Positions 8,983-40,272 of a DNA stretch of 61,544 nt are shown here, in pieces. How positions within the stretch are numbered: position 1 is the first letter of the stretch; the number at the start of each line of letters is the position of its first letter. The notes beneath the pieces were generated by a model. It was not told where the DNA came from. It did no database searches and was given only the letters and a program-made list of their open reading frames with translations. Source of the stretch: a virus; IMG/VR virus record IMGVR_UViG_3300044998_000395, positions 1 to 61,544 of that record. The stretch is one strand, 5' to 3'. The position numbers were made by a program, and so were the translations under genes.

Positions 8983-8987
8983 AAGCC

Positions 8988-9013
8988 GCGGCCTGAGCTC
9001 TCGCCCAGGCCGC
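8988..9013 (-). terminator. Hairpin after 9020 gene
   Basis: GCGGCCTG and CAGGCCGC form eight perfect pairs around a ten-base loop, directly downstream of the stop at 9020 and upstream of the GIY-YIG gene. No strong T-tract follows on the minus strand. Confidence 0.5.
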
Positions 9014-9019
9014 AGGCGG

Positions 9020-9625: not shown

Positions 9626-9653
9626 ACGCCGCTCCTTCCTGCGGCCGAAGCCG

Positions 9654-10589
9654 CTACAAGAGGTTGCGCAGAAGATCGGTGGACGGATCCACCGCGAGAG
9701 TTGGCTGCCACTTCTTGCAGCACACGGTCAGCAGCTCCTGCGCGAGGCCACCGACCCTCCCAACGTCTTGCGCGCTCACGTCAGCCGTAGTCCGTGACCG
9801 CATCTCGAGTTGTATCGCCGCGGCGAGGTTGCCCTCGCTCGACGGGTTGAACGCGTATGAGCCCATGCCGTTCGTGTCACGTGCCTCGATGACCTTGTCC
9901 TTGTTGCGGTCGTACACGTGCATCGACCCAGCGACGTGCGTGTAGGTGCCGGGCTCGACGCCGAGCCGCAACGCAACGATGCGCTGGAACGTCGTGAAGG
10001 CGAACACGTCGTACGGCGTACCGAGCCACAAGTCGTTGCTGCGCATCGTCACCACGGAGTGCAGCTTGTCGTTGCGAAGCAGGAACTGGATCGCGACGGT
10101 ACACGGGATGTCGTTGATCTCGCCGGTCTGCCCGTGGACGAGATCGCCATGGTCCCACATGCCGACGAGGCACTGGCGCGTGTTGGGCGACTTCTTGATC
10201 ATTGCCACCGCGGCGTCGAGCTGCGACGGGAACTCGAGCCCGGTCGTCGCCTTCGCTAGAAGGAAGGCAGGCGAGTCCACCCACCGCTTGCCGTAGGCGC
10301 CGTGCGCGCGGTTCGTGCCGGGCTGGGCGAAGCGACGGTATTGCGGAGCGTAGGCCTCGACGACTCGCACGTCGTCGCTGCCGCTCAGGTACCACAGCGT
10401 CTCGGCCGCCGCGTACACGAGCGAGGCCTTGCGCACTGACGCGAGGCAGTGGTCGATGTTGCTCAGGCGGAAGCCGAAGCCGGTGAGCTCCGTACAACCG
10501 CCGTCACGCGACTCGAGCCGGCTGCCGTGCTTGAAGATGTCGTGAGCGATGCCAACCCACGCCTCGTTCATGGTGTCATACGTGATCAT
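9654..10589 (-). CDS. Thymidylate synthase family enzyme, dCMP-hydroxymethylase-like
   Basis: A 311-aa enzyme of the thymidylate synthase fold. The catalytic Cys is in NDIPCTVAIQF (Cys163), phosphate-binding Arg/Ser in TMRSNDLWLG, and the dUMP-side chain motif reads GTPYDVF, with Asp194 where true thymidylate synthases have Asn. In T4 dCMP hydroxymethylase the equivalent Asn is also Asp (Asp179) and selects dCMP. Since ThyX (12440-13420) can supply dTMP, this enzyme may make 5-hydroxymethyl-dCMP. The ATG at 10589 has GAGGT upstream; frame extends to 10607. A dTMP-making role with altered specificity remains possible. Confidence 0.85.
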   Translation of the reverse strand: MITYDTMNEAWVGIAHDIFKHGSRLESRDGGCTELTGFGFRLSNIDHCLASVRKASLVYAAAETLWYLSGSDDVRVVEAYAPQYRRFAQPGTNRAHGAYGKRWVDSPAFLLAKATTGLEFPSQLDAAVAMIKKSPNTRQCLVGMWDHGDLVHGQTGEINDIPCTVAIQFLLRNDKLHSVVTMRSNDLWLGTPYDVFAFTTFQRIVALRLGVEPGTYTHVAGSMHVYDRNKDKVIEARDTNGMGSYAFNPSSEGNLAAAIQLEMRSRTTADVSAQDVGRVGGLAQELLTVCCKKWQPTLAVDPSTDLLRNLL

Positions 10590-10824
10590 GAGACCTCGCA
10601 TCAGCACAGGAAGCGAGTTCGTACACGCGCTCGTCTCCTGGGAAGAATGACTCGGTGCGAACGTAGTAAGATCCCTTGTACGAAAGGATCTTCCAGTCGT
10701 GGTTGCTCGTCATAGGGCCGTGAAGCTTGTCGTACAGTGCCTCTGGCGGCAGGGCCTTGAACCCGTCCTGCCTACGACCTGGCGGCATCTCACGCTTACG
10801 ACAGAGGATGATCTTCTCGATCAT
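10576..10824 (-). CDS. Small hypothetical protein
   Basis: An 82-aa basic protein of unknown function. MIEKIILCRKREMPPGRRQDGF then WKILSYKGSYYVRTESFF suggest a small alpha-beta fold. Its ATG overlaps the C5 methyltransferase stop (ATGA) and its 3' end overlaps the TS-like gene, so it is translated within the DNA-modification operon. Confidence 0.6.
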   Translation of the reverse strand: MIEKIILCRKREMPPGRRQDGFKALPPEALYDKLHGPMTSNHDWKILSYKGSYYVRTESFFPGDERVYELASCADARSHDHV

Positions 10825-11996
10825 GCTGGCTTCTCCGGACAGTAGTCGGTCATGAGGAAAGACTTCTCGACCTTGCCGTGCGAGTCGTCACCGTGCCACT
10901 GGCCAGTGGACTTGTAGTACGACGACTCCCAGTCCTCGCCACCCCACGAGTCCTCGAGGTACAGCTTTGCCTGCTCCGCGAGCCACGTGCCGACGGCCGG
11001 CACAATGCCCTTGCCGATCTGACCGATGGGCATCTCACCAAGAGGAGTGACGCCTTCTGGCCAGCCCATGAGCAACGACAGCTCTCGCAGCGTGAGCGTA
11101 CGGTCAAGTGTAGGGTGAACGAACCGGCCGGCCGAGCTGCTGATCACCGGCATGAACCCGTCACCGCGCACACGCATCAGCGAGTGCATTGAGAAGGGCA
11201 TGTCGGACGACCGCTCCCGCCACGTGCGGGCGTACTTTGCTGACACCCGCTCGAGCACGTCGTACTTCTCGCGAGCGAATCGGTTGAGGTCCCATCCTTG
11301 CGGCAGGTGCGGCATGACCCGCCACTCGTCGTCCGTCTTGTCGTTCGCGTGGTCCGGCCCGTAGATCGACTTCTTGCCGAACCGCGAGAACTGCACGTCG
11401 GTCTTGAGCAGGTCGTCACGGAAGAGAACGTCCCCGCAGGTCGCGTGCCGCTCGAGCAACGGCGGTGGCTTGATGTTGAACGGCTTATCCGCCTTGTAGG
11501 CCATGAAGAAATAGCGCTTGCGGTGCTGCGGGTTGCCGAACGACGCCGCGTTGAGCATGAGGTGCGCGATGCGGTAGCCGTTCGGCACGAAGATCTTGTC
11601 ACGCAGGTAGTCGAGCAGCTCGCGACCGACGGTCATCGCCTGCTGAACCGATTCCCAGCACACGAGCTGGTAGCCGTGCTTCACGCCGTAGTGGCATAGA
11701 TCGTGGATGTCACGGGTAGGCGCAGACCACGCCCCGTGAACGGCCTCGTCGTGTCCAGCGGTCGTGCAGCTGAAGCCCGTGCACCGCGGGTTACCGAACA
11801 GCATCACGGCGCCGGGCGATGGCGACGGCCAGTCCTCCCAGGTGTTACCCACGATGAAGTCGATGCCCGCCGCCTTGACGGTCTTTTCGCCGAGGCCGTG
11901 GATCTCGAGCTGTCTTGGTACGTCCATCACCTCGCGCACACCGAAGGAGAACCCGCCGGCGAACACGTGGCAGCCGTCAGCGACGAATCTTGGCAT
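10821..11996 (-). CDS. DNA cytosine-5 methyltransferase-like protein
   Basis: A 391-aa protein with C5-methyltransferase motifs in order: motif I VFAGGFSFGVREV (residues about 11-23), motif IV GNPRCTGFS with the candidate catalytic Cys (PRC instead of PCQ), motif VI CWESV (usual ENV), motif VIII QHRKRYFFM and motif X GKGIVPAVGTWLAEQ. It should flip and modify cytosines in DNA, most simply to protect phage DNA. The altered IV and VI motifs set it apart from standard Dcm/HhaI enzymes. ATG at 11996 is preceded by GAAGAAGG; a TTG at 12002 is in frame. It overlaps the MazG gene and lies beside the TS-like enzyme. Confidence 0.85.
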   Translation of the reverse strand: MPRFVADGCHVFAGGFSFGVREVMDVPRQLEIHGLGEKTVKAAGIDFIVGNTWEDWPSPSPGAVMLFGNPRCTGFSCTTAGHDEAVHGAWSAPTRDIHDLCHYGVKHGYQLVCWESVQQAMTVGRELLDYLRDKIFVPNGYRIAHLMLNAASFGNPQHRKRYFFMAYKADKPFNIKPPPLLERHATCGDVLFRDDLLKTDVQFSRFGKKSIYGPDHANDKTDDEWRVMPHLPQGWDLNRFAREKYDVLERVSAKYARTWRERSSDMPFSMHSLMRVRGDGFMPVISSSAGRFVHPTLDRTLTLRELSLLMGWPEGVTPLGEMPIGQIGKGIVPAVGTWLAEQAKLYLEDSWGGEDWESSYYKSTGQWHGDDSHGKVEKSFLMTDYCPEKPA

Positions 11997-12471
11997 CTTC
12001 AAGTACCTTCTTCAAGTTCGGCGGCTGATACGACGCGCCCTTGTTCCGGAGGCGAGGGTCGTCAACGCCGGGCGTGCGGACCGCCTTGGTCATGTTGCTG
12101 CGGTGGATCTCTTCGCCTACCTCGTCGAGCGGGATGCCGAACGCGACCGCCGCACCGTGCACGACGTAGTCAAGGTCGCCGAGGCCGTCGGCCAACTTCA
12201 CCTCATCGCCCTCGGCGAGGGCATGCATGACTTCGGCCGCCTCCTCGAGGATCAAGTGAGCCCGCATCAGCCGGCTGTTGAACGGTAAGTCTTTACCGCC
12301 CGCGTTGATCGTGCCCTTGGCCAGCTTCACGGACAGGCTGTGCAGGATCTTGCCCGCGAGCTCGAGTTCGTACGACGCAGCGTCGCACTTACAATCATCG
12401 ACCGCGAGGTCGCGATCGAAGCCATGCTTGTCATGGAACTCACGAACCAGCTGGGTCATCGTCTTCTGCAT
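11977..12471 (-). CDS. MazG-like nucleotide pyrophosphohydrolase
   Basis: A 164-aa all-alpha NTP pyrophosphohydrolase. The metal-binding signature is LEEAAEVMHAL (residues about 74-84) and DGLGDLDYVVHGAAVAFG (about 92-109), the E-x-x-E ... E/D-x-x-D pattern of the MazG/dUTPase superfamily, and the C-terminal half matches phage enzymes annotated as phosphoribosyl-ATP pyrophosphohydrolase-like. It would cleave a (d)NTP to NMP and pyrophosphate. In a T4-like scheme it could act as dCTPase, removing dCTP and feeding dCMP to the TS-like enzyme. It overlaps thyX by 32 bases; AGGAG lies nine bases before its ATG. Confidence 0.85.
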   Translation of the reverse strand: MQKTMTQLVREFHDKHGFDRDLAVDDCKCDAASYELELAGKILHSLSVKLAKGTINAGGKDLPFNSRLMRAHLILEEAAEVMHALAEGDEVKLADGLGDLDYVVHGAAVAFGIPLDEVGEEIHRSNMTKAVRTPGVDDPRLRNKGASYQPPNLKKVLEDAKIRR

Positions 12472-13420
12472 ACTCAGGATCTCCTTTGATGTTCGACTGC
12501 ACGTCTTTCATGATCACGGCGATCTCGCCGTCAGCGAACCGGTTGCACCGCATGCGGAAGATGTGGTTCCACTGGGCGAGCGACGCGGAGAAGATCATCT
12601 GCGTCTCGAGGCCCATTGGGAGCATCAGCCGCGCAGCGCCGCGGGCCTGCTTGCGAGCGAAGTCCAGTGTCTCCTTCTTCTCATCGACGAGCCAGGTCTC
12701 GAGCTTCTTGACGATCAAGTCGTAGGCGGATTGGCAGCCGCCCTTCACGCCGTCGATGTACTCCTCGAACTCGAAGTCGTGCTCGTCGAAGTACTCGCGA
12801 AGCAGCGGGTGATCGAGGATCGGCGATGACGACTCATCAACGTACCGCGTGCTTCGCTGGCTGATGGCTGACCAGTCGCCGTGCCTGACCTGCTCATGCG
12901 ACCAACCGCGGGAGCCGCTGATCCACGCGCTGACCCAGACCTCGTTGACGTTCGCAGGCTTGACGAGCCGGCATGTCGTGTCGGACGTCAGCACAAGCGG
13001 CACGACCTGCGGCGCGAGGTTGTAAGCCTCCTGGGCGATGAGCGTGTACAGCGGGCAGGCCGTGTCCCACTCGAGCACGTGCCGGAGGTTGAGCACCATG
13101 CGAACCTTGCCGCGCGGCCTGTGCAGCCACAGCGCCGGCTTGTTCCAGCACAGCTCTGACCACTGCGGCTTCCACGTGTTGAACTCGAGCACGAACGTGC
13201 AGTGCTCGTACACGCTGAGGTGTCCGACTTCCTTGACGTGCTTGTGCCAATCGGCCGAAGACCGGCCCGTGCCAAGCGAATCGTAACACACGCGGCCTGC
13301 GACCTCGGCCAGTAGCTCGAGCGGAGTACCGACGAGCTGGCCCGGCTTGGGCTGGCCCATGGCCTTCGGAACGTTGAAGAAGTCAGGCATCGCTGTGTTG
13401 TATACTGTCTCAGAACTCAT
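12440..13420 (-). CDS. thyX: Flavin-dependent thymidylate synthase ThyX
   Basis: A 326-aa ThyX. The FAD/dUMP-binding region shows HLSVYEHCTFVLEF near residues 73-86, the ThyX signature appears as RHGDWSAISQRSTRY (variant of R-H-R-x7-S), and the C-terminal MRCNRFADGEIAVIM fits the Arg-rich dUMP site. ThyX methylates dUMP using methylene-tetrahydrofolate and FADH2. It is longer than usual (220-260 aa) because of inserts. Start ATG at 13420, AAGGAA upstream; overlaps the primase-helicase stop by 11 bases. Having ThyX together with a ThyA-type enzyme is unusual and suggests the latter has another job. Confidence 0.9.
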   Translation of the reverse strand: MSSETVYNTAMPDFFNVPKAMGQPKPGQLVGTPLELLAEVAGRVCYDSLGTGRSSADWHKHVKEVGHLSVYEHCTFVLEFNTWKPQWSELCWNKPALWLHRPRGKVRMVLNLRHVLEWDTACPLYTLIAQEAYNLAPQVVPLVLTSDTTCRLVKPANVNEVWVSAWISGSRGWSHEQVRHGDWSAISQRSTRYVDESSSPILDHPLLREYFDEHDFEFEEYIDGVKGGCQSAYDLIVKKLETWLVDEKKETLDFARKQARGAARLMLPMGLETQMIFSASLAQWNHIFRMRCNRFADGEIAVIMKDVQSNIKGDPEYAEDDDPAGS

Positions 13421-16319
13421 GCTTGGGTTCCTTCAGGAAGTCGGGACGGGTAACACGCTTCATGTCGTCGCTCTCCTTGAGCTTACGCAGGAGCGTGATA
13501 AACTCGGGGTTCTTACGATACGACCGGCCGTCACGGATCAGCGCGTGCTTACGAACGAGGAAGGACAGGAGGTCAGTCGCCTCCTGCTTGTCCCACCCGG
13601 TCCAGTCGCACATGTCACGGAGCTCGATCTCGTCGGTGTGCAGGACTTGATCAACGAAGTCGCCCGGGAACGGGGTCGTCAGCACGCGCTTGCCGATCTG
13701 CTCACCGTCGTTCAGCTGCCGGGTCTTGGCATACGCTTGTGAGAAGTCGAGGTAGCCGACGGTGCGTGAAGAGTATACCCGGTCCAGAGTCTTTGCGATG
13801 TAGCGCACGTGACACTCGCGAACCAGCACGTCCTGCGGCGTGGTGCCGAAGGAAGCCGTCCTGCAGGCGAGGGCTGCCGCTAGCCGGGCGATCTTGAACC
13901 GCGTGCTGCCGCGGTCGAGTACCGGGATGGCGTCCACGTATCGACTGCACAGCTCGTTCGTTACCTCGAGGACGGCTGCTTGCGCATCCGGGTCGAACCG
14001 GACTTGCTCCTCCGTGCGAGTCCACGCCCAGAGCACGCAGCGCTTGCAGAGCTCGGCCGTGTACGTATGCTCGACGACCGGGCGGGACGCCGTGAGCATG
14101 TTGAGCCGTGAGGAATCAACCTCTTGAGCCGATACGACAAGGACCGCATCGAATCGACGCAGGTCTTCCGGTCCACCAATGAGCTCCCGGACCGCCTCGA
14201 TGCCATAGGAGTACGCAGCCACTGGTTGATCGCTACGAGGATTTGACAGTGCAAGCAGACGGGTACGGGCGTGCGTGCGGCGCTTCTCGATCTTGTCGAT
14301 CTCGGCGATGCCTGAAGACCGCATGTCCGTGAGCTTGCTGATCGTCTCGACTGGCGCACCCTTGAGCTCCTCGAGGACGACGAGGCGACGGTCGTGCCGC
14401 GGGATAACGCCCCACGTGACCATCCACCTCGCGCCCAGCTGCTGCAACCCGCCGAGCAAGCCGGCGGCCGACGCGTTCTTAACCTCGACCTTCTCACCAA
14501 GGCCGTAGTGCTCCATCATACGTCGCGTCGTTTCCGACTTGCCCTGCGCCGAGTCGCCTACGATGAGTACCTCGCTCCAGCCCTTCTCGACTCGACCATC
14601 GAACGTGATCAGCAGCGGGCTGTGATACACGAGGTCGACGAAGAGGTGTAGGTCAGGTCGATCGAAGATGCGCGTGACGTTGGCAGCGAAGTCGCTGTAC
14701 ACAGACGCGAGCTTCGCGTCGATACCGTCCACCGTCCACTCCGACGGGCGGAAGACCTCGAGCTCCTCGAGCTCGTCGTCGGTCGGCTTGTAGGTGTTGA
14801 GTGCGTCCTCGGCCGGCTCAGCCTCGCTGATCAGGAGGATGGCTTGCTGGTTACGAGGGTGCGGGAACAGTCGCCCTGTGAACTTGTAGGCGACGTTCAT
14901 CTCAAGACCGTGACTGACGGTCAGCGCCGGGATCATCACGCTGTCTGACGAGCGGCTGCCGATCTCGAGCTGCGGACTGATCCGAACGTCCTCGACGTTG
15001 TAGTGCGTCTTGACGTGGAACTGCGCGCTCTTGCACGGCGGGATCTTGAGGCCTTCCCGGATCGAGTCGCGCTTGGTCTTCTTGCCCGTGTTGACGAGGT
15101 CAAGGATCGCGGGCGACTCGGCGCTGATGGTCAGCTGCACGAGGTCGTCGCTTGCGTCGTGAACGAAGACTGGGCAGTTCACGCAGAACGGCTGGTTCCG
15201 GTCGCACTCGACCGCGACGTCCTTCGGGATGATGTACGGCGTCGTGTCCATCGCCGTGATGATGGCCTTCGTACACACGCGTCGCCGCGTGTACTCGGCC
15301 TTCGTCGACTCGGCGAGATGGACGTCAGTCAACTCGGCCGGCTCGTCCTGCGAAGCGCCTTGCTTAGGCACCCACACCTTAGCCCGCTCGAGCAACGCGA
15401 CGAAGTCAGGCCCAGTCTTGTTCTCTTGACCGAAGTAATCGTTGACGTCGCCGTGCGGGTACTTGTCCGAAGACAAGTCCTTGCACAGCTCGGCCGTCGC
15501 GTCGTACACGGCGTCAGCGTAGTTCTTGAGCCGCGCGGCTACCTTACCGGTGCCAACGATACCGCCTTCGTCGATGTCGTAGCAGACCCAGACCTTCTTA
15601 CCGCGGAACCGCGGGCTGAACTCGGCTTCCCAGTTGTCCTCGCCGCCGCACTGCGTCATAGCGCCCCAGCCGAGCTGGTTCAAGCGCTGCATGACGGCCG
15701 CTGCCTTCATCTCGCCGCCGAGCAAGACGATCTTATCGAACTTGAGCTGGTCGATCGGGTAGAGTCGGTTGCGCCCGCACCCGCGCGTGTTGCGCATCTT
15801 CTCCTTGCCCGGTGCGCCCGGCTTGTACCGCCGGACATTCACGACGTGACCGTGCTCGTTGTAGACCGGGATCGTGATCCGGTTGTTCTCGTCAACGCCG
15901 AGCCGCAGCTTGCGGATCGTCTCGTCGCTGATGCCGCGGTCGTACAGCTCACGCTTGAGCGGACCGGCGTCCCAGATCTTCTCATGGTACTTCTCGACCA
16001 CGGTCGGGTCGATCGTGCCGCCAGACTCGACACCGTACTCCTTACGGATGTACTCGATGATCGTCTTGCGGTTGGTCTTCGTCGCGATGGCAATGAAGCT
16101 GATGAAGTCGCCTGACTCGCCGCAGCCGGCGGCCATGCACTTCCAGACTTTCTTCTTGACGTTGATGCCGCAAGAAGGCGTCTTGTCAGCGTGTGCTGGG
16201 CAGCAGCACTTGACCTCCTCGTCGCCAGCGAACTCGTACTTCCAGCCCATGCGGTCGAGCTCGGCCAGTACGTTGATCGCCTGGAGTTCTGCGTAGATGT
16301 CGTTACTGCGTTCTGTCAT
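13410..16319 (-). CDS. DnaG-type primase fused to MCM-like AAA+ helicase
   Basis: A 969-aa protein. Residues about 38-66 form a CHC2-type zinc finger (KCCCPAHADKTPSC, then KCMAAGC); 196-255 hold a TOPRIM primase core (IVLLGGEMKAA with Glu203; VCYDIDEGG with the paired Asp). A linker has C-x6-C-x2-C plus a later Cys (372-429), perhaps a second metal site. Residues 588-595 are Walker A GDSAQGKS, 645-653 Walker B RLVVLEEL, and SSGIAEIDKIEK ... RLLALSNPRS fits the MCM pre-sensor and sensor I. It should prime and unwind at the fork. DnaG-MCM fusion replaces the usual DnaB-type partner. ATG at 16319; a TTG at 16337 is in frame. Confidence 0.9.
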   Translation of the reverse strand: MTERSNDIYAELQAINVLAELDRMGWKYEFAGDEEVKCCCPAHADKTPSCGINVKKKVWKCMAAGCGESGDFISFIAIATKTNRKTIIEYIRKEYGVESGGTIDPTVVEKYHEKIWDAGPLKRELYDRGISDETIRKLRLGVDENNRITIPVYNEHGHVVNVRRYKPGAPGKEKMRNTRGCGRNRLYPIDQLKFDKIVLLGGEMKAAAVMQRLNQLGWGAMTQCGGEDNWEAEFSPRFRGKKVWVCYDIDEGGIVGTGKVAARLKNYADAVYDATAELCKDLSSDKYPHGDVNDYFGQENKTGPDFVALLERAKVWVPKQGASQDEPAELTDVHLAESTKAEYTRRRVCTKAIITAMDTTPYIIPKDVAVECDRNQPFCVNCPVFVHDASDDLVQLTISAESPAILDLVNTGKKTKRDSIREGLKIPPCKSAQFHVKTHYNVEDVRISPQLEIGSRSSDSVMIPALTVSHGLEMNVAYKFTGRLFPHPRNQQAILLISEAEPAEDALNTYKPTDDELEELEVFRPSEWTVDGIDAKLASVYSDFAANVTRIFDRPDLHLFVDLVYHSPLLITFDGRVEKGWSEVLIVGDSAQGKSETTRRMMEHYGLGEKVEVKNASAAGLLGGLQQLGARWMVTWGVIPRHDRRLVVLEELKGAPVETISKLTDMRSSGIAEIDKIEKRRTHARTRLLALSNPRSDQPVAAYSYGIEAVRELIGGPEDLRRFDAVLVVSAQEVDSSRLNMLTASRPVVEHTYTAELCKRCVLWAWTRTEEQVRFDPDAQAAVLEVTNELCSRYVDAIPVLDRGSTRFKIARLAAALACRTASFGTTPQDVLVRECHVRYIAKTLDRVYSSRTVGYLDFSQAYAKTRQLNDGEQIGKRVLTTPFPGDFVDQVLHTDEIELRDMCDWTGWDKQEATDLLSFLVRKHALIRDGRSYRKNPEFITLLRKLKESDDMKRVTRPDFLKEPKHEF

Positions 16320-16337
16320 GGTTCCGTCAATGAACAA

Positions 16338-16361
16338 GGCCCCGGTCCGAAGACCGAGGCC
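16338..16361 (-). terminator. UUCG-loop terminator hairpin
   Basis: On the minus strand GGCCTCGGTC, loop TTCG, GACCGGGGCC: ten pairs with one wobble, followed by TTGTTCATT. A second hairpin (CCGAGC/GCTCGG) lies at 16411-16431. Together they separate the 16433-17263 gene from the primase-helicase and probably terminate or attenuate. Confidence 0.65.
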
Positions 16362-16432
16362 CTGTGCACAACCGTGCCATCACCGCTGACCCGTATTTCG
16401 CCAGCACGGTGTACCCGAGCGGTTCAGCTCGG

Positions 16433-17263
16433 TCACATGTCTTCGCGCTTCTCCGCCGCGGGACCGCCGGCGTCGACCGGCGCGTCGTCGTCGTAGTTGG
16501 CGCGCAGGAGGTTGTTCTGGTAGGCCTCCTCGAAGTCCTTGTTGAGCTTCGCGAGGTTGTCGTAGAGCTCCTTGTCGGTGACCCAGGGAGCGACGCCTTC
16601 GACCGTCGGGTTGCGGATGTCCCACCCGAACCACGAGCCCTTCTCGTTCTTGCGCGGCTCGGGGTTGACGACGGCCTCGAAGACACAGCCGAACATGTCA
16701 GCCTGCCGCATCTTGATCATCGACGCGAGCTGGCGGCCGCTCTTGTGCTCGGCACGAGCGAACGACATCACCGCGGGCATGAGGCCGATCTCGTGGTTGA
16801 ACAGCGCGACGATGAACGTGATGTGCTCGACGTGCCGCACCTTCTCGATGGTCCGGTCGTTGAACTTGTAGCCCTGCTCGATCCACGTGTCACGGTTCGT
16901 CGCCTTGCGGGCGAGCTCGCTCTTCTGGTCGAGCGTGCGGGCGAGGATCGCCGGCACCTGGCCCTTGAGCTCGATCGGCGCCCAGGTGACGTACTCGGGA
17001 TACTGGATGATCGGGATGATGTGGAACGGCGTGCCAGCCTTCGCCACCACGACGTCGGCCGGCCGGAGGATCGTGGTCCCCTTGCCGAACGCGTCCTGCA
17101 GCGCGTCGTCAGACTGCTTCTGCACGACCTTGAACAGCGGCGGAGTAACGAACTGCGCGAGGCGTTCGGTGCCCAGCGCTTCCTTGCCGCGCTTGATGAA
17201 GTCCGGTGCCGGCGCCGCGAGAGCTCCCGCGGGCTGCACCTTCGTGATGCCCTTGTCTGCCAT
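16433..17263 (-). CDS. Conserved phage replication-region protein
   Basis: A 276-aa protein. The layout (FVTPPLFKVVQKQSDDALQD, then GTTILRPADVVVAKAGTPFH, IIQYPEYVTW and a late SWFGWDIRNP) resembles the phage proteins of unknown function that describe lists of resist-or-release single-strand DNA binders upstream of primase genes. It ends in an acidic tail (DDDAPVD), as ssDNA-binding proteins do. A single-strand-binding role is thus plausible but unproven. AAAGG lies ten bases before the ATG at 17263. Confidence 0.55.
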   Translation of the reverse strand: MADKGITKVQPAGALAAPAPDFIKRGKEALGTERLAQFVTPPLFKVVQKQSDDALQDAFGKGTTILRPADVVVAKAGTPFHIIPIIQYPEYVTWAPIELKGQVPAILARTLDQKSELARKATNRDTWIEQGYKFNDRTIEKVRHVEHITFIVALFNHEIGLMPAVMSFARAEHKSGRQLASMIKMRQADMFGCVFEAVVNPEPRKNEKGSWFGWDIRNPTVEGVAPWVTDKELYDNLAKLNKDFEEAYQNNLLRANYDDDAPVDAGGPAAEKREDM

Positions 17264-17307
17264 GATTGAACCTTTCGTATGGACGAACATTCAGTACTGT
17301 GACCGAC

Positions 17308-17892
17308 TTACTGCTTGGCCTCCTTCCTGACCTCGTTGAGGTCGACGTCAGTGCGCTTACGAACCGAGGTGGAGTACTTCGGCTTCGTGTTGTCGGGGTC
17401 GATGCCGTCGGGCAGGGGCTTGCCCTGCTGCGTCAGCTCCGTGCAGTACTCGACCATCCGCGGCCAGTGAGCCGTGAGCAGGCCGAGCTGGATCGTTTCT
17501 TCGGGCACGCCCAGTGACTTCATGAGCATGCCATAGCGGGTCGGCTCTTTCGTGAAGGAGGGACACGTCGCTTGGATCTTGAGGTCGGGCGTGCAGATCG
17601 CGACGTTGCCCTTGACGGACCGGTCCTTCGCCGCCGCGCCGCTTGACACGTACACGGCGCACAGGATGTTGTCGAAGAGCTCGCGCATCGCGCCAGCTTC
17701 CTTCTTCAGGTCCTCGAAGATGTCGAACATCTGCTTGACGAAGTAGATCACGTCGGCCCGGTCTTCCTGGGTGATGCCGGCCTTCGCGTCCTTCATCTTG
17801 TCGCTGATCGCCTTGAGCTTCTTGTACATCTCGGCGTGGAAGGCTTCGGCCTCCTCGTGAGCAACGACCGCGGTCTTCAGTGCTGTATGCAT
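17308..17892 (-). CDS. Hypothetical protein, replication region
   Basis: A 194-aa protein, helical in its first half (HEEAEAFHAEMYKKLKAISD; FVKQMFDIFEDLKKEAGAM). No catalytic motif is recognisable. GGAGACAGT directly precedes the ATG at 17892, the recurrent ACAGTA-type leader. It overlaps the neighbouring 17877-18218 gene by 16 bases. Its location before the putative ssDNA-binding protein suggests a replication accessory role by context only. Confidence 0.6.
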   Translation of the reverse strand: MHTALKTAVVAHEEAEAFHAEMYKKLKAISDKMKDAKAGITQEDRADVIYFVKQMFDIFEDLKKEAGAMRELFDNILCAVYVSSGAAAKDRSVKGNVAICTPDLKIQATCPSFTKEPTRYGMLMKSLGVPEETIQLGLLTAHWPRMVEYCTELTQQGKPLPDGIDPDNTKPKYSTSVRKRTDVDLNEVRKEAKQ

Positions 17893-18218
17893 ACTGTCTC
17901 CAAGTTGACGCGGCGTTCCTCGTACCCACCGGTGCTCGCGTTGAACACCACAAGATGGAGAGGGGACTGTCCGCAGTACATGACGAGCGCTGACAAGGCG
18001 AGCGACGTCGTGAGCAACGGCGGCGTGATGCAGAAGCGATCCACCTCGGGATCGAACCGCACCTCGCGGAGTCGCCGCACGACGTCCTGCATGAACAGGT
18101 CACAACGCAGGACGGACGACCGGCGCTGCCCAGACGGGAAGAGCACGTTGAGCTCGCCGTAGCTTTGCAAGCCGTCGGTCGAGACCTTGGGTTGTTCGAT
18201 GATGAAGACCCTATTCAT
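17877..18218 (-). CDS. Hypothetical protein
   Basis: A 113-aa protein of unknown function (MNRVFIIEQPKVSTDGLQSY at the start, then alternating beta segments). The ATG at 18218 overlaps the stop of the zinc-ribbon gene; the longer open frame to 18266 lies within that gene and is less likely. Confidence 0.6.
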   Translation of the reverse strand: MNRVFIIEQPKVSTDGLQSYGELNVLFPSGQRRSSVLRCDLFMQDVVRRLREVRFDPEVDRFCITPPLLTTSLALSALVMYCGQSPLHLVVFNASTGGYEERRVNLETVCIQH

Positions 18219-18411
18219 GTGAGCAGCTGTCGTCGTTACAGACGCCTCCGTATTGCGGACGGTCACGACGACCGCAGTTGCGACAACCGCGGCGCGGCCA
18301 ATCCGTCGAGTCCTTGTTCGTTGGGTCGGGCTGGACCTTCGAGTCGTCGTACGGCGGCATTGCCTCGATCATGGCCCGTCCGTCCTCGCCCAGCTTCCAG
18401 TTGGTACCCAT
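18211..18411 (-). CDS. Small zinc-ribbon-like protein
   Basis: A 66-aa protein ending in CRNCGRRDRPQYGGVCNDDSC, a two-CxxC-like pattern that could bind zinc. AGGATACAGT precedes the ATG at 18411. A promoter-like pair at 18412-18439 abuts the ATG; if real, transcription would begin inside this frame and the next in-frame ATG (18372) would be used. Confidence 0.6.
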   Translation of the reverse strand: MGTNWKLGEDGRAMIEAMPPYDDSKVQPDPTNKDSTDWPRRGCRNCGRRDRPQYGGVCNDDSCSHE

Positions 18412-18439
18412 ACTGTATCCTGTCTTCTGGCTGTGTCAA
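18412..18439 (-). promoter_or_regulatory. Promoter-like sequence abutting ATG
   Basis: On the minus strand TTGACA, 16-base spacer, TACAGT, immediately followed by ATG of the 18411 gene. Box quality matches the 1390 and 4238 promoters, but the position allows no leader, so it may be fortuitous. Confidence 0.4.
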
Positions 18440-18449
18440 ACGGAAACCG

Positions 18450-18587
18450 TTATTGCTTGCACAATGAGCCGGCCGGGCCGGCATGCACGTGCCGCATGCA
18501 CACGTTGTCAAGTACTTGACCCGTTCCTTGAGCTTGGACCGCACGCTCTCGAAGGATCTCTCGAGCGTGGGTGACAAGATCTTGCAC
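18450..18587 (-). CDS. 45-aa hypothetical protein, GTG start
   Basis: The frame begins GTG at 18587 with AAAAGG a few bases upstream and ends TAA at 18450. Product VQDLVTHAREILRERAVQAQ then a Cys/His-containing tail. It fits between two genes without overlap in a genome that leaves few gaps; sequence composition (amphipathic helix) looks coding, but support is limited. Confidence 0.4.
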   Translation of the reverse strand: MQDLVTHAREILRERAVQAQGTGQVLDNVCMRHVHAGPAGSLCKQ

Positions 18588-18592
18588 GCCTT

Positions 18593-18670
18593 TTAGTACG
18601 TGACCTTCCGGTCTACGACGAGACGGGCGTACTGCGTAACGAGGATCAGCTCAGGTTCTTTCCACCGCAT
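18593..18670 (-). CDS. 25-aa hypothetical protein
   Basis: A very short frame (MRWKEPELILVTQYARLVVD, 25 aa) whose ATG overlaps the end of the GHKL ATPase gene. The sequence looks like a natural small protein rather than a shadow, and it fills the space before the GTG gene at 18587. No family is recognisable. Confidence 0.4.
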   Translation of the reverse strand: MRWKEPELILVTQYARLVVDRKVTY

Positions 18671-19697
18671 TGCCGCCCTCCATCGTCTTGATGATGTCAT
18701 CCAGCTCCGCGAGCAGATCTTGGTTGAGCGCGTACTGCGCCTTCTTACGAAAGTCACGCAGCCGGTCGAGAGGCGACTTGGCAGACGGGATGAACCACTT
18801 CCGCACGTGCCGCAAGATGGACTTCGCGGCCTCGGTCACGAGCTGCCACTTGAGCCCGGCCGCTTGTGCCTTCTCGACTTCCTCTTGATTCGTCACAGGG
18901 ACTACGTCGGGTGGCACGGTGCGCTCGATCGCGGCGATGATCCGTGACTGGGCGCCAACATGCGACGTGACGTACTCGACATCGGGCGCTCTCGAGCTGA
19001 CGAGCTCCGCCGCGCGATCATCGTCTCGGTCAGCCCAGATGCGCGAGGTCGCATACTTGACGTTGAACCCGTCAACCATTCCGCGGTCGCGGTCAAGCGG
19101 CAGTTCCTCCGGACGGAACGCGTACCCATGCTTCATGTCCTTCAGCGTCGTGACGTATAGACCGCCAACGTAGATGCGACCCGCCTGGTCGTCGCTAAGC
19201 ACCCCGTGTAGCGACGGGTCGATCATGTTGGGCTTGATCTCGTCCCACGTCTGCTGGCCGACGCCATACACGAGGAACTCGACGCCCCACTCGGAGTTCT
19301 CCTCTTGGTGGACGTTGATCTTCAGGACTTCGCAGTCGAAGTTCTCGTCATGCTCGATGACAGGAACCCAGAACTCGTTGTCCATGATCACACGAACTGG
19401 GTAGCCCATCCGAGCCAGCACGAGCAGCGCGAGCTTGTAGCCCTCACCGAACTTGCCGCGCAGGCCCTTATCGTTGTCCTTGTCAGTCTCGCCGAGCAGT
19501 AGCGTCTTACGATCGAGACGACCGTCGCTCGTCTTGATGCGAAGCTGCTGGTTGTCAGGGTCATACTTGACCTCAGCCGTGCAGCCAGGCGACCGGTCCC
19601 GTTGGTCGTATGCGTTCTGCACGAGCTCGCGGACGGCTTCCCAGAAGCCCCAGTGAGCGGCGTACTTCGGCGACAGAGTGAGTGTGTATTGTTTCAT
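18651..19697 (-). CDS. GHKL-type (Hsp90/histidine-kinase-like) ATPase
   Basis: A 348-aa protein. The Bergerat ATP fold is shown by ELVQNAYDQ (N box, residues 24-32) and GLRGKFGEGYKLALLVLAR (G box, about 79-97). After about residue 200 no histidine-kinase dimerisation or receiver domain follows, and the C-terminus is basic and helical. This resembles stand-alone GHKL ATPases of MORC or Hsp90 type rather than a sensor kinase. In a phage it could act as a DNA-handling or chaperone ATPase. Rare in this context; function unknown. ATG at 19697. Confidence 0.72.
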   Translation of the reverse strand: MKQYTLTLSPKYAAHWGFWEAVRELVQNAYDQRDRSPGCTAEVKYDPDNQQLRIKTSDGRLDRKTLLLGETDKDNDKGLRGKFGEGYKLALLVLARMGYPVRVIMDNEFWVPVIEHDENFDCEVLKINVHQEENSEWGVEFLVYGVGQQTWDEIKPNMIDPSLHGVLSDDQAGRIYVGGLYVTTLKDMKHGYAFRPEELPLDRDRGMVDGFNVKYATSRIWADRDDDRAAELVSSRAPDVEYVTSHVGAQSRIIAAIERTVPPDVVPVTNQEEVEKAQAAGLKWQLVTEAAKSILRHVRKWFIPSAKSPLDRLRDFRKKAQYALNQDLLAELDDIIKTMEGGNAVERT

Positions 19698-19736
19698 AAG
19701 CGGCTGCCGAGCCGTTAAGCTGGGCAGTCCTGTAAG

Positions 19737-20447
19737 TCAGATGGGCTTACGACCGCGGAACCAGCGGTTGAGGTAGTCGAAGAACCGCTGCACCGGACCG
19801 CGCATGCCGAGCCACGTGTCGAGGAAGGAGAAGATATCGTCCACGTCCACGTCGCCGTCACCATCCTCGTCGAGCGTGTGGTACTCGATCCACTCGATGT
19901 GCGGCCACAGCGCGATTCCGTACGACGCGTCACCGAACTCGGATCGCCCGCTGCGTGACACGCTCACGGCCACCGCGGCCAACTCGCCGTTCACGACCCA
20001 GCCACCTCCTGAGTCGTTCTCGGCGAACTGCGCCTCGTGCGGACCGCCGTCGGCATCGAACGTCGATGCGACCCACGTGCCGACCAGTTCAACGCGGTTC
20101 GTGCCGACCAGCGGCAGCCGCGGGAATCCCCACGGGCCGCCAACGACGCCCGTCCGCCCGAACCCGAGCATCAGCGACTCGGCGCTCGGCTCGTTCACGC
20201 CGGACTTGCGCGGCGGGTACCAGCGAGGCAGCTTGCGGTCGACGCGCAGCAGGGCGAGGTCGGCCCACGGGTGTTGCACGCGCTCAAGGACCTTGTACTC
20301 CTCGTGGTTGATCCGCACCACGGTACCAGTCCACGTATGGGCAGCAGTGATGCACCAGCGCGCAGCGATCGGGATGGCGGTCGATCCGTTGTAGTCGCCG
20401 ACCGCGTGTTGTTCGTACTCGTCGATCGGTCTCTCGGCTAAGATCAT
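19737..20447 (-). CDS. Trypsin-like serine protease with dockerin-like C-terminus
   Basis: A 236-aa protein with a full catalytic triad: His in ITAAHTW (about residue 37), Asp in ADLALLRV, Ser in NDSGGGWV. The C-terminus has DEDGDGDVDVDDIFSFLDTW, an EF-hand/dockerin loop and helix like that of the 5127-5351 product, then a short basic tail. I see no N-terminal signal peptide, so it may act in the cytoplasm, or leave at lysis. The ATG at 20447 lies one base after the SNF2 helicase stop. Candidate roles are cleavage of host proteins, virion maturation, or breaking a protein-rich planctomycete cell wall. Confidence 0.85.
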   Translation of the reverse strand: MILAERPIDEYEQHAVGDYNGSTAIPIAARWCITAAHTWTGTVVRINHEEYKVLERVQHPWADLALLRVDRKLPRWYPPRKSGVNEPSAESLMLGFGRTGVVGGPWGFPRLPLVGTNRVELVGTWVASTFDADGGPHEAQFAENDSGGGWVVNGELAAVAVSVSRSGRSEFGDASYGIALWPHIEWIEYHTLDEDGDGDVDVDDIFSFLDTWLGMRGPVQRFFDYLNRWFRGRKPI

Positions 20448-20448
20448 G

Positions 20449-22452
20449 TCAGTCCTCCATGGCAGATGGGTCAAAGGAGACAAGGCGCTTGAGGATCTCT
20501 CGCACGTCGCCCGCCTCCATGGCGACTTGCTTCTTCGACTGGAGCTTGCTCAGGATCTCGACGTCGATCGTACCCGGTACGATGAAGTCACGGTATTGGA
20601 TCGACTGCCGGCAACGGCCGCGCCCGTGGTTACGGTCCTCGGACTGCCAGCGTTGGACGCCCGACCAGTTGCATGCGTAGTACCATGCCTCACTGGCATT
20701 GGTCGTGTAGGCGTCGGGGTTGCTCGCGTCATAGCCCGGCAGGTTGAGACCCACGCCACCCGCAGCCGGGTTGCCGAGGAACACTTTGTACTTGGGATCG
20801 AGGTTGAAGCAACGCTCGGCCTCGGCGCGGTCAGCCTCGCTCATCCCGCCGTAGTAAAGCACGTGCGGGATGCCCTCAGCCGTGAGACGCTCGGAGATCT
20901 TCTTGATGACCGGGACCCAGCAGCACCACACGATCGTCTTATCGTCGGGGCCACGGGCCTTGAGCCCCTCGACGATGGCATCGAGCTTCGGCACCTCGTC
21001 GAACCACTTGATGCGGTCGGCGCCCGACTTGATCGGGTTACCGTCATCATCGTACTCGGCGTCCACGACGACGTACCCGGCCGTGATCTGGGACAGCCGC
21101 AGCAACTTCGTAAGGGTGTTGTTGATGGTGATGGCCGAGGGCGAGTCGTCGAGCGCGTCTTGGATCTCGGCCGCGAGCTCGGAGGACACCTTGCGGTAGA
21201 CCTCCTTCTGCTTCGGGCTCATCCCGCACTCTTCGAGCAGGTACGTCTTCTCCGGCAGCGAGGGCATCGCTTCCTTCTTAGTGATGGAGAAGGACACGCG
21301 TGCGAGCCGCTCGTGCAGCATCGGCAGGTTCTGGAAGCCGACGAGCACCTTCGCGCCTTGATAGTTGTCCTCGCCATTCTCGGAGTACTTGTTGTAGAAG
21401 GACCGGAACTCCTTCCACTCGACGAAGCCGGACATGCCCTCTCCCAGCCACTCGAGCGGGAAGTAGAGGTCAAGTAGCGAGTTCGTGACGGGCGTGCCCG
21501 TGAGAGCGAGGCGACGCTCACACTTCTCACGCAGCTTCACCATCGCGTTGGCACGCTTGGCCCACGGCGACTTGAACATGTGCGCCTCGTCGGCGATGCC
21601 CAAGTCCCAGTTGAACATCTGGAGCGCGTCCCACGACTTCTGCAAGGTCTCGTAGGACGTGATGACCACGTTGAACATGCTGCCCGGTTCGTCCTCGGCG
21701 ATCTCGATGAGCTGCTTCACGCGGTGAAGCTTGCCACCGCGCAGCACGACGACGCGACCGGGGACCGTGCAGAACTTCTGGATCTCTCGAGCCCAGTTGG
21801 CCTTCACGTTCTTCGGGCACACGACGATGCAGTAGTACGGCTTGCCGGTCCGTGTGTACTTCTCGCGGGCAAGGTGACACATCACCGCGATGGCGGTGGG
21901 CGTCTTACCCGTGCCCTGCTCCATGAAGAGCGCGTACCCTTCGGACTCGATGGCGTTCCACGCCGCGCACCGCTGGTACGCAGCAAGCGGGAACTCCGGG
22001 TGCTCGACCCAGCCAGCCGGCGGGTCGGGAAGCTGCCCGGTCTCCTTGAACACGGCGGTGCGCTGCGCACACATCGTCTGCTCCATGAACCGGAGCAGCA
22101 AGTAGTTGTACGTCGTGCGGGCGGTCTCGTCAGTGAACGTGATGCGGTCCTGCGGCCAGACGGCATTCGTCACCATCACATTGAAGTCCGTGGCCGCGAC
22201 CTTCCACCGGCCGTAGCCCAGCTCTTCACGCTCTTGCGTACGTGCGAACCAGTCAAGCGTAGCCGCACGGGACGCCGGGCCTCGTTGGCCCGCCGCCGTC
22301 GCCACTGCTTGCATGATGAACTCGTTCGCCGTCTGGCCCATCCCGATCTCAAGCCGGTCGTTCGGCATGAGGGGCACCGGGCTCAAGAGCTGAGCCGTCG
22401 CGTCGTTGAGCGGCTCGAGAACGTGCTTGGCGATTTCCGTTGCCGTGGTCAT
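20449..22452 (-). CDS. SNF2-family DEAD/DEAH helicase
   Basis: A 667-aa superfamily 2 ATPase: motif I FMEQGTGKTPTAIAV (around residue 180), motif II IADEAHMFKS, motif III LALTGTPVTNSLLDLYF, and motif VI as QRWQSEDRNHGRGRCRQS, a variant of the SNF2 Q-x-x-D-R-x-x-R. Phage SNF2 helicases of this size probably remodel protein-DNA complexes during replication. The promoter at 22474-22501 gives a leader of about 15 nt containing AGGACACAGTAC before the ATG. Confidence 0.92.
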   Translation of the reverse strand: MTTATEIAKHVLEPLNDATAQLLSPVPLMPNDRLEIGMGQTANEFIMQAVATAAGQRGPASRAATLDWFARTQEREELGYGRWKVAATDFNVMVTNAVWPQDRITFTDETARTTYNYLLLRFMEQTMCAQRTAVFKETGQLPDPPAGWVEHPEFPLAAYQRCAAWNAIESEGYALFMEQGTGKTPTAIAVMCHLAREKYTRTGKPYYCIVVCPKNVKANWAREIQKFCTVPGRVVVLRGGKLHRVKQLIEIAEDEPGSMFNVVITSYETLQKSWDALQMFNWDLGIADEAHMFKSPWAKRANAMVKLREKCERRLALTGTPVTNSLLDLYFPLEWLGEGMSGFVEWKEFRSFYNKYSENGEDNYQGAKVLVGFQNLPMLHERLARVSFSITKKEAMPSLPEKTYLLEECGMSPKQKEVYRKVSSELAAEIQDALDDSPSAITINNTLTKLLRLSQITAGYVVVDAEYDDDGNPIKSGADRIKWFDEVPKLDAIVEGLKARGPDDKTIVWCCWVPVIKKISERLTAEGIPHVLYYGGMSEADRAEAERCFNLDPKYKVFLGNPAAGGVGLNLPGYDASNPDAYTTNASEAWYYACNWSGVQRWQSEDRNHGRGRCRQSIQYRDFIVPGTIDVEILSKLQSKKQVAMEAGDVREILKRLVSFDPSAMED

Positions 22453-22473: not shown

Positions 22474-22501
22474 ATTATACCCCAGATTCCCAGGATGTCA
22501 A
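22474..22501 (-). promoter_or_regulatory. Strong sigma70-like promoter
   Basis: On the minus strand TTGACA, 16-base spacer, TATAAT: a consensus match at both boxes. It overlaps the stop of the gene at 22498 and drives the SNF2 helicase and genes below it. Confidence 0.8.
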
Positions 22502-23759: not shown

Positions 23760-23767
23760 GGTACTAG

Positions 23768-23796
23768 AATATCGGATACAACTGGCCGCGAGTCAA
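23768..23796 (-). promoter_or_regulatory. Promoter of the GATATT class
   Basis: On the minus strand TTGACT, 17-base spacer, GATATT, in the same GTATCCGATATTCTA context as the 4786 promoter. It directs leaderless transcription of the 23580-23759 gene. Confidence 0.65.
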
Positions 23797-24106
23797 TCAA
23801 TCGACCAACTTTCTCTCTGCTTCAGAGCGACGTAATGCCGTTTATGCAGGCTATGTCACGAGGGTATTTCCTGTAGCCGATAACAACCGGTGTTTCTACG
23901 CTTCTAGACGCTATTTCGTCTAGATGGCTTCTAAACGGGCCCGCCTGACGGACGGGTCGATATACCAGACTAGTTGTCGGGATGCACCAGGCCTACCCGT
24001 CGGGCAGCAGTTTGAAGCCTGTTTCCCCTGTCGTAGCCCGCATCGACGACAGTCGTGATACGGGAAACATAGATGATACGCTTTTGTGATTTCATCAACC
24101 AAAGCA
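23768..24106. repeat. Element A, copy 2: structured intergenic repeat
   Basis: Homologous to 4786-5098. Identical blocks at 23876-23899 (24 bases), 23949-23970 (22) and 23996-24014 (19). Paired arms: GACGGGT 23951-23957 with ACCCGTC 23995-24001; CAGGC 23988-23992 with GCCTG 24017-24021 (CAGAC/GTCTG in copy 1, a compensatory change); GTTTCCC 24021-24027 with GGGAAAC 24062-24068 around an inner CTGTCGT/ACGACAG stem that differs wholly from copy 1 yet still pairs. TCTAGACG/CGTCTAGA forms a further hairpin near 23903-23926. A 60-codon minus frame (23920-24102, TTG) is the coding alternative. It sits between divergent promoters. Confidence 0.82.
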
Positions 24107-24107
24107 G

Positions 24108-24136
24108 TTGTCTTGCGGTCTCGCGTATTCGATATT
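24108..24136 (+). promoter_or_regulatory. Plus-strand promoter, GATATT class
   Basis: TTGTCT, 17-base spacer, GATATT with the shared CGTATTCGATATT context, but pointing right. It should drive the only plus-strand genes (24211-24814), leaving a leader of about 70 nt. Confidence 0.55.
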
Positions 24137-24210
24137 TAGTTGTCAACGAAAGGATGCAACGGCGTCGATAAAGCGGCCCTCATCGCTCAACGTGAAGTGA
24201 AAGGAACGAA

Positions 24211-24471
24211 ATGAACCTCACGTCTGCATCGCTCGCTCTCTTCCTCGCTCTCGTTGACGACGCACCCAACTGGAGCGGCTGTCCGCCCATCGCGACGAAA
24301 GGCCGAGGCGGCAACGTCGAGTTGAAGCCGGGTGAAACCGGCAACCTCACTGACTTGCAGGCCAAGGGCCTCATCAAGCTCGACTGGGATCCTGAGTCGA
24401 GGCTCAACTGGGTCACGTTCACTGAGGCCGGCGAGAAGCTCGCGGCCGAACACGGAAAGGGGATCCGATGA
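24211..24471 (+). CDS. Small winged-helix-like protein, plus strand
   Basis: An 86-aa protein with AAAGGA six bases before the ATG. Residues about 45-80 (LTDLQAKGLIKLDWDPES, then VTFTEAGEKLAAEHGK) look like the end of a winged helix: helix, turn, two-strand wing with LT-x-x-G. It may be a regulator divergently transcribed from the replication module. Function not established. Confidence 0.65.
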   Translation: MNLTSASLALFLALVDDAPNWSGCPPIATKGRGGNVELKPGETGNLTDLQAKGLIKLDWDPESRLNWVTFTEAGEKLAAEHGKGIR

Positions 24472-24614: not shown

Positions 24615-24814
24615 CTGGCACTATCCTTGCGCCCGACCTCATGGGCAAGCGCTTCATCGTTCACGAGGTGATCGGCGAAGTCGTGTCTCTGCCCAGCAAT
24701 GTCCGCGACACGATGTACTGCGTCATCATCAACGACCCATCTTGCGGCGAGCACGAAGAGATGTACGATCTGCCCGGCCGCGACCTCATCTTTGATCATC
24801 ACGAGCCCACGTGA
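24611..24814 (+). CDS. 67-aa hypothetical protein, plus strand
   Basis: MTGTILAPDLMGKRFIVHEV and a following beta-rich body ending in acidic/His residues. It is coupled to the upstream gene by ATGA and converges on the metallophosphoesterase gene, overlapping its 3' end by 29 bases. Function unknown. Confidence 0.6.
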   Translation: MTGTILAPDLMGKRFIVHEVIGEVVSLPSNVRDTMYCVIINDPSCGEHEEMYDLPGRDLIFDHHEPT

Positions 24815-26108
24815 CGTGTGAACCACGGAATCCGGTCTCGTCGTAGCGCCACGCCTCAACTGACTTCATCGGCTCGCCGATGAGGCCGCCCTTGTGGTGC
24901 CACGCGTCCACGTTGCAGAGAGCGGGGTTACGCCGCACGAGCAGCCCGTTCGTCGGCGTGACGCCTTCATACTGCTTCTCCCAGCGCTGGTGCAGGTGAC
25001 CGACTTGCACCTCGCGGTAGGTGCTTCGTGCCCAGAGGTCCTTGAACTCCGTCGCGAGGATTGTGTTCAGCTGGTTGGGCTTGCAGTCTTGCCCGTGGTC
25101 GAACACGACCATCGAGCCGCCGTGCATTATCGCCTTCCTGGGGTTCATGGCGAGGTCCATCGTGAACCGCTTCTCGTTGCGGTACCGCTCGGCCAAGGCC
25201 ACACACATCGCGAAGCTCGACGTTACGTCGTGGTTGCCCGGCACGTAGAGCGCGTCTACCTTCGCGCCGACCTCGAGCGCCCGCTGCACCATGTACACTT
25301 GACAGCGCAGCCCTTCGAGGAACACCTTGCTGTACCGCGTGTCGGTGTCAAGGAAGTGCGTGCCGTGCGTCGTGGTGTGACGCACAGAGTCGAAGTGCAT
25401 GAAGTCGTTGCCCACGGGCATGACGATGCGCTGCACGTTGTACATCGAGAGCTCGCGCACCATGTCGTCGACTGAGTTCATGACTCGACGCACGGCGATC
25501 TCGAGGTCGAAGCTCGCACCGACTTCCTTGTCCCATGCGTACATTCCGAGGTGCGCGTCCCAGAGGCCCCACACCACCATGAACGGCTCGCCGCTGGGCT
25601 GCATGCGCTTGCCCATCGGCGGCACGGGAGCGGCGTGCTTCTGGGCGAAGGCGACGAGAGCAGCCGCCACGGGCTCCTGCACCTTGCGCTTCCACACCAC
25701 GCGCGTTTGGTAGAGCGTGACCTTCTTGTGGCCCTTCCCGTCGGCGAGCTTATAGAAGCCCTGCCATTCGTTCGCACGGAAGTACTCGCTCACCCACTCG
25801 TCGCGGTCGACGCCGAACAGCTCTGCCATCTCGTCGAGCGTCTTGGGCTTGTCGAGCGTCAAGATGCGCGTGCTGCCATCGACCTCGCGCTGGTCGATCG
25901 GAACGTTGAGCGGGTCAGTCGGCGCGCCTGCGCCGTTGACGAGCCTAAGCTTGGGCAGCTTGCCAGACCCGCCGTGCGCCTTTGCGTAGCGGTGCGCGGT
26001 CGCGACGTCGATGCCCAGCTGCTTCGCGATGTCACGGAACGAGTGTCCGCTCCTGCGCAGCCGCAGGATCTGCTCAATCTTCTTAGCGTCGAGCGATTTC
26101 GTCGGCAT
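24786..26108 (-). CDS. HTH plus calcineurin-like metallophosphoesterase
   Basis: A 440-aa protein. Residues 8-40 form a resolvase-type helix-turn-helix (IEQILRLRRSGHSFRDIAKQ). From about 175 a metallophosphoesterase domain shows all metal ligands: GLWDAHLG (D-x-H), VGNDFMHFD (G-N-D), PGNHD (GNHD) and GHLH. Similar HTH-phosphoesterases occur in tailed phages near tail genes and are of unknown substrate; DNA 3'-end processing is a fair guess. It lies alone between element B copy 1 and the plus-strand trio. The inverted arm of element B ends at its ATG, so that arm likely controls it. Confidence 0.88.
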   Translation of the reverse strand: MPTKSLDAKKIEQILRLRRSGHSFRDIAKQLGIDVATAHRYAKAHGGSGKLPKLRLVNGAGAPTDPLNVPIDQREVDGSTRILTLDKPKTLDEMAELFGVDRDEWVSEYFRANEWQGFYKLADGKGHKKVTLYQTRVVWKRKVQEPVAAALVAFAQKHAAPVPPMGKRMQPSGEPFMVVWGLWDAHLGMYAWDKEVGASFDLEIAVRRVMNSVDDMVRELSMYNVQRIVMPVGNDFMHFDSVRHTTTHGTHFLDTDTRYSKVFLEGLRCQVYMVQRALEVGAKVDALYVPGNHDVTSSFAMCVALAERYRNEKRFTMDLAMNPRKAIMHGGSMVVFDHGQDCKPNQLNTILATEFKDLWARSTYREVQVGHLHQRWEKQYEGVTPTNGLLVRRNPALCNVDAWHHKGGLIGEPMKSVEAWRYDETGFRGSHVTWARDDQR

Positions 26109-26361
26109 GTGAGCTCCAGTTTGTATACAGGAAACTAGTTATGTCGACCGCAACCGCCAATCCAACCACTAGGCAGACAGCCAATACAACAGCTCTAGAA
26201 CAACAAACTCAACTTAGCCTACGTAGTGAGATAGATTGATAGAGTTTTCATGGTACTGGTCGTTGTCGATTTTCCGGTAGTGCTTTTCCGGTGAAGCGTG
26301 CAGTTTGGTGTCAGGGACTGGCTGAGCAAAACTAGTTTCCTGTATACAAACTGAAGCTCAC
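26109..26361. repeat. Element B, copy 1: inverted-arm intergenic repeat
   Basis: Arms 26109-26140 and 26330-26361 are inverted copies matching at 31 of 32 bases, each containing TGTATACA. Between them are a 16-base block at 26213-26228 and GATTTTCCG at 26268-26276, both found in the same order in copy 2 (51248-51531). The spacing from left arm to the 16-base block is nearly the same in both (104 and 103). The region is more A+T-rich than the genome and has no gene. TATACA within the left arm could be a -10 box for the 24786-26108 gene. Confidence 0.82.
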
Positions 26362-26375
26362 GGGCTTGATCAGAA

Positions 26376-40186: not shown

Positions 40187-40204
40187 GTTGGTTTCCTTTG
40201 AGGT

Positions 40205-40272
40205 TTAGTGACCTCTAGATGCGTCAGCCTGTCGGACGGGTCGATATATCAGCCGCGGTCTTCGGACCCGTC
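40205..40272. repeat. Element A core, copy 3
   Basis: Bases 40212-40252 match the centre of element A copy 1 (4935-4975) at most positions, including 16 identical at 40233-40248. GACGGGT 40235-40241 again pairs with ACCCGTC 40266-40272, though the enclosed loop is shorter (24 against 37 bases). It covers the 3' end of the 40249-40572 gene and the gap before the adaptor. Reading in the coat-side gene's frame continues past TGA as YIDPSDR, the same peptide as in copies 1 and 2. Confidence 0.65.

Follow-up and report, generated by a model that had tools for sequence, protein, structure and literature searches.

Paired intergenic regions with predicted outward-reading promoters, probably duplicated operon-control regions, flank the replication module of an uncultured siphophage

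The siphophage SPP1 carries two similar AT-rich origins that lie far apart, one of them intergenic (PMC6316719), and a literature search returned this phage as the sole useful parallel to the locus described here. The early and middle operon promoters of phages, such as PE1-PE5 of SPP1, are of the sigma70 type. We analysed two related elements, A1 and A2, of a metagenomic siphophage that had been suspected of encoding a new structured RNA, and found that they look like something fairly ordinary, namely twin promoter regions before two gene clusters.

The window, by which we mean the whole stretch of DNA analysed, is the metagenomic IMG/VR virus record IMGVR_UViG_3300044998_000395, with a length of 61,544 bases, a GC content of 63% and a 127-base repeat at its ends (1-127 = 61418-61544). 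Almost all of its genes are on the minus strand, and PHROGs matches identify a siphophage (terminase, portal, major head protein, tape measure and tail proteins) that also encodes a polymerase, a primase/helicase, a helicase, members of the thymidylate synthase family and a ribonucleotide reductase. A megablast search with positions 1-25000 against an annotated phage collection gave no match. The preliminary description of this DNA had placed A1 and A2 on either side of the replication module, and the positions of the replication genes, assigned with PHROGs and Pfam, agree with this:

5406-22452, minus strand: replication module, between A1 and A2
5406-7400, within the module: DNA polymerase
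13410-16337, within the module: primase/helicase
20449-22452, within the module: helicase

Two genes of the thymidylate synthase family are located on the minus strand at 9654-10589 and 12440-13420; the former has a homologue in the related phage MW202657 that carries the annotation pyrimidine hydroxymethylase, so modified DNA bases are possible in the window phage. A predicted DNA repair exonuclease (24786-26108, minus strand; weak metallophosphoesterase match) has an N-terminal helix-turn-helix, and is a possible candidate for a DNA-binding regulator.

That a region is duplicated near 4786-5098 and 23768-24106 was confirmed by alignment of A1 (4783-5021) with A2 (23765-24014), which are 69% identical over 251 columns (E 2.5e-29). 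The identity falls in separate blocks: the reported identical runs of 24, 22 and 19 bases were recovered together with further runs of 11 and 9, and the three longest show significant clustering (p = 0.00025). A core of 148 bases aligns between A1 and A2 with no gap and 32 differences (78% identical), and a partial copy of this core, copy C, is 72% identical to A1 over 123 columns (E 1.1e-8; nhmmer E 2e-9). The elements and their parts are as follows:

4783-5098, minus strand: A1, putative intergenic control region preceding a minus-strand operon whose first gene is 4262-4756
4874-5021, minus strand: conserved core of A1, 148 bases
5099-5120, minus strand: GC-rich hairpin bordering A1 on the right, after the end of the replication operon
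23765-24140, unstranded: A2, putative intergenic control region separating the leftward replication operon from rightward small genes
23867-24014, minus strand: conserved core of A2
40203-40284, minus strand: copy C, partial copy of the core, spanning the 3' end of gene 40249-40572 and the gap between it and gene 39668-40186

A scan of 4757-5126 for genes gave none that was convincing. A1 and A2 are among the few AT-rich intergenic gaps of this genome, and local GC around A1 is 0.445-0.485, compared with 0.629 genome-wide. The hairpin at the right edge of A1 has 9-base arms that are 89% complementary, and it resembles a terminator lacking a clear T run; the minus strand of 5080-5126 folds with -26.1 kcal/mol, and our terminator scan did not report this hairpin. 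The window also contains a second pair of AT-rich intergenic elements, unrelated to A, at 26109-26375 and 51217-51527. These are 64% identical over 180 columns, have terminal inverted repeats and lie at the ends of the structural module; the sequence AGTTTCCTGTATACAAACT occurs exactly three times in the window, always within this pair.

In the collections searched, the A elements are restricted to the window siphophage and one near-identical contig. Exact scans of 2.9 million viral contigs with three blocks returned only this contig (L004) and coincidental matches to a single block; a 500-base comparison of L004 with the window showed no difference, and L004 carries the same stretch of copy C. 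The four coincidences examined frame by frame (L005-L008) were all inside coding genes. One 19-base pattern had no match in 84,980 prokaryote genomes, a distant blastn search of A2 against annotated phages had none either, and nhmmer and a covariance model, run over the relatives that we fetched (1.03 Mb for the covariance model, a check proposed in the preliminary description), found no further convincing member. L007 and L008 reached E 1.4e-5 in the model search and were rejected as members of the A family, their blastn similarity being one 22-base block in a gene.

Outward-reading promoters of a shared GATATT class had been noted on both copies. This observation held, and could be sharpened to the pattern TTGWC-N18-GATATT, equivalent to a sigma70-like promoter with a 17-base spacer, which occurs at exactly three sites in the 61.5 kb, each directed outward from the outer edge of an A element; A1 has the leftward promoter only. 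When one mismatch was allowed, 5 sites were found against 0.35 expected. Hexamers of the sigma70 type at a spacing of 16-18 bases, upstream of genes and oriented toward them, are thus predicted at three element edges:

4786-4814, minus strand: A1 promoter, TTGACC-N17-GATATT, reading left into gene 4262-4756
23768-23796, minus strand: A2 left promoter, TTGACT-N17-GATATT, reading left
24108-24136, plus strand: A2 right promoter, TTGTCT-N17-GATATT, reading right toward gene 24211-24471

Spacing is conserved among the three A promoters, and the spacer sequence has diverged. The leftward pair heads the replication operon (A2) and the next operon (A1). The A1 promoter is approximately 30 bases before the ATG at 4756, with an AAAGGA ribosome site in between, and the left promoter of A2 is 8 bases before the ATG at 23759, where the transcript would be leaderless or nearly so if that start is right. 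Just past the rightward A2 promoter, a five-codon frame (ATGCAACGGCGTCGATAA; 24155-24172, plus strand) preceded by an AAAGG ribosome site is possibly a leader peptide. An extended -10 sequence within the core, TGGTATATC, was looked at by eye as a further promoter and rejected, there being no conserved -35.

Because this pattern occurs three times in the genome, always at A edges and with its leftward sites near start codons, we consider A1 and A2 to be probably duplicated operon-control regions; of the functions suggested in the preliminary description, a regulatory one fits best, with outward sigma70-like promoters at the element edges before operons. The AT-rich intergenic setting, the identity in separate blocks and the arrangement in the relatives G008 and G006 (below) point the same way. 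Against this reading, the A promoters match the sigma70 consensus at only 8-9 of 12 positions, copy C has no promoter and overlaps a coding end, the core lies 60-220 bases behind the leftward promoter, which is far for a simple operator, and a clear A-type pair is missing from most of the relatives examined. In its favour, sigma70-like sites with at least 10 of 12 matches number six in the genome, all on the coding strand, compared with about two in shuffled sequence. Within operons and upstream of genes, four sigma70-like TTGACA-N16 promoters are present on the minus strand at 22474-22501, 18412-18439, 4238-4265 and 1390-1417, with -10 boxes near consensus (TATAAT, TACAGT, TACAAT and TATAGT); the one at 22474-22501, in front of the helicase, matches at 12 of 12 positions. 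The A promoters thus make up a class separate from, and weaker than, these TTGACA-N16-TATAAT-type promoters.

Under the control-region reading, host RNA polymerase would start transcription at the element edges, and a DNA-binding protein encoded by the phage or the host would recognise the conserved blocks and thereby couple the switching of the replication operon to that of the next one. The core is non-coding and lacks support as a conserved fold; it most likely represents the binding site of such a regulator. A GATATT -10 box, weak relative to the promoters of the TTGACA-N16-TATAAT type elsewhere, would suit an activator, although this is a guess, and copy C might then be an extra binding site within the structural operon.

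Relatives were gathered through searches with the polymerase, the exonuclease and the head protein, and share mostly 38-62% protein identity with the window phage; among them we detected no homologue of the A sequence. One relative (G008; polymerase 38% identical) has a duplicated region of its own (139 columns, 68%, E 1.5e-12), one copy following the polymerase match at a distance of 38 bases and the other preceding the helicase match by 775 bases. These are the gene positions that A1 and A2 occupy in the window, and the duplicated region extends into the promoters TTGCTT-N17-TATACT and TTGCAT-N16-TATAAT. In layout this relative matches the window, and in sequence the region is unrelated. A second (G006) has repeated TTTGCAT-TATAAT promoters after the polymerase; the spacing differs, and both promoters lie between the polymerase and the helicase, whose order is different there. 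Duplicated intergenic elements with the form of long imperfect palindromes were also observed at other operon heads in G002 (24765-25004 and 64854-65498; L041, L043) and G009 (12216-12408 and 45743-46062; L049, L051); with respect to the genes, those of G009 are placed like the second pair of the window. These palindromes reach about 300 bases and are 60-70% self-complementary, and their self-palindrome E-values are overstated, every pair having been counted twice. G001, G003 and most other relatives examined have no clear A-type pair. Gene calls came from a home-made caller that produces false gaps, so gap-based counts in the relatives are approximate. The pattern thus appears to be recurrent, and not universal.

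The chief rival is that A1 and A2 are replication origins in two copies, as with oriL and oriR of SPP1. That phage gives a precedent, and such a function could coexist with the promoters, but we think it unlikely. The elements are intergenic and AT-rich for this genome, and 19 kb of sequence separates the two, one at each end of the replication module; A1 contains a repeat with a 17-base period that only 1 of 500 shuffles equalled, and a weak 22-base-period repeat is found in both copies. However, the 17-base repeat is not in A2, the 22-base repeat is non-significant alone, GC skew does not switch at the elements, and no origin-binding protein was recognised among the subset of genes scanned. 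An iteron array was rejected as a candidate, since the repeat-period test was not significant in both copies.

Slightly less favoured still is an RNA reading, in which the phage would encode, in its two cores, copies of a structured RNA or of a structured leader arising from read-through. Its main support had been paired arms said to co-vary, and this did not withstand testing. RNAalifold energies were compared with those of 200 column-shuffled alignments for three ranges on both strands, a comparison of low power with two sequences, and gave z values (plus/minus strand) of -0.8/-1.4 for the core, -0.3/-1.1 for the 148-base block and +0.1/-1.0 for the whole, so that none of the ranges folded better than its shuffles; the structure conservation index (SCI) of the two-copy alignments, 0.36-0.58, was about that of the shuffles. 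In the first of the claimed arms, GACGGGT/RCCCGTC, a single position differs on one side only, giving a G-U pair on plus-strand RNA and an A-C mismatch on the minus strand. The change from CAGAC/GTCTG to CAGGC/GCCTG is a true double change, and the sole genuine compensatory pair found among these arms, but requires a 2-base indel. The GTTTCC/GGAAAC stems are located where A1 and A2 do not align, and their inner stems therefore cannot count as covariation. As there are only two full copies, such tests have low power, and covariation consequently lacks support rather than being disproved.

Folding of single sequences was likewise divided. Against 134 genome windows, the A2 core ranked 3rd and 1st, out-folding nearly all of them on both strands, but the A1 core ranked 41 and 33, like ordinary windows, so foldability is not common to both copies; similarly, an 8-bp hairpin, TCTAGACG/CGTCTAGA, is perfect in A2 and broken in A1. 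The 7-base GACGGGT/RCCCGTC helix and the one compensatory pair are common to the copies, and conservation in blocks would also fit an RNA. Promoter scans, however, show none reading into the core, the covariance model recruited no further convincing member, and Rfam 15 gave no match at gathering score, a permissive search returning YenS alone (16.4 bits against 80, E 0.32). The structured-RNA reading has thus lost its main support and is improbable.

Degenerate MITE-like mobile elements that happen to carry promoters are very unlikely. The genome has several copies, a 34-base terminal inverted repeat (74%) bounds A2, and copy C overlaps a gene end, but no terminal inverted repeat was found in A1, that of A2 consists of its two promoters, the full copies are placed exactly at operon heads, and copies in the viral and genome collections searched occur only in the near-identical contig. 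A remnant of a minus-strand gene, or the small minus-strand protein suggested in the preliminary description, can be dismissed: although the minus strand is readable as peptide-like stretches (KLLPDG, VWYIDPS, VETPVVI) and unrelated phages have genes that contain exact pieces of 16-19 bases, these outside matches are confined to one block each, the peptides are spread over two frames, all six frames contain a stop in at least one copy, the 60-codon minus-strand ORFs (4911-5093 and 23920-24102) are in different frames, and substitutions are distributed over codon positions with no third-position excess (14/10/8 over codon phases in the core; 5/9/6 at positions 1/2/3 of the VWYIDPS frame).

A more ambitious combination, which we also regard as unlikely, would be a phage-specific duplicated 300-base cis unit, promoter together with replication start (or transcribed structured RNA), one at either end of the replication module; each phage lineage would have renewed the unit independently and kept its gene position. 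On the operon-control reading, a suspected new RNA is replaced by a testable transcription-unit map for an uncultured siphophage. The comparison with relatives suggests that, in some of the more distant ones, the same operon heads are still preceded by duplicated control regions whose sequence is no longer recognisable, and if this is general, regulatory regions of phages could be found by position instead of sequence.

Compared with described systems, the A elements share with Rfam structured RNA families the presence of GC-rich inverted repeats within a conserved non-coding region, but differ in having neither a significant Rfam 15 match nor support from covariation. Like oriL and oriR of SPP1, A1 and A2 form a pair of similar AT-rich sites, widely separated within a siphophage genome; unlike them, they have no clear shared direct repeats and, among the genes scanned, no recognised origin-binding protein. 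There is also a likeness in form to sigma70-type phage early and middle operon promoters such as SPP1 PE1-PE5, where paired hexamers, 17 bases apart, likewise stand immediately before an operon's first gene and long AT-rich intergenic stretches are reserved for control (PMC6316719). The A region differs from these in that it is duplicated within one genome, including a block-conserved core of about 150 bases behind the promoter.
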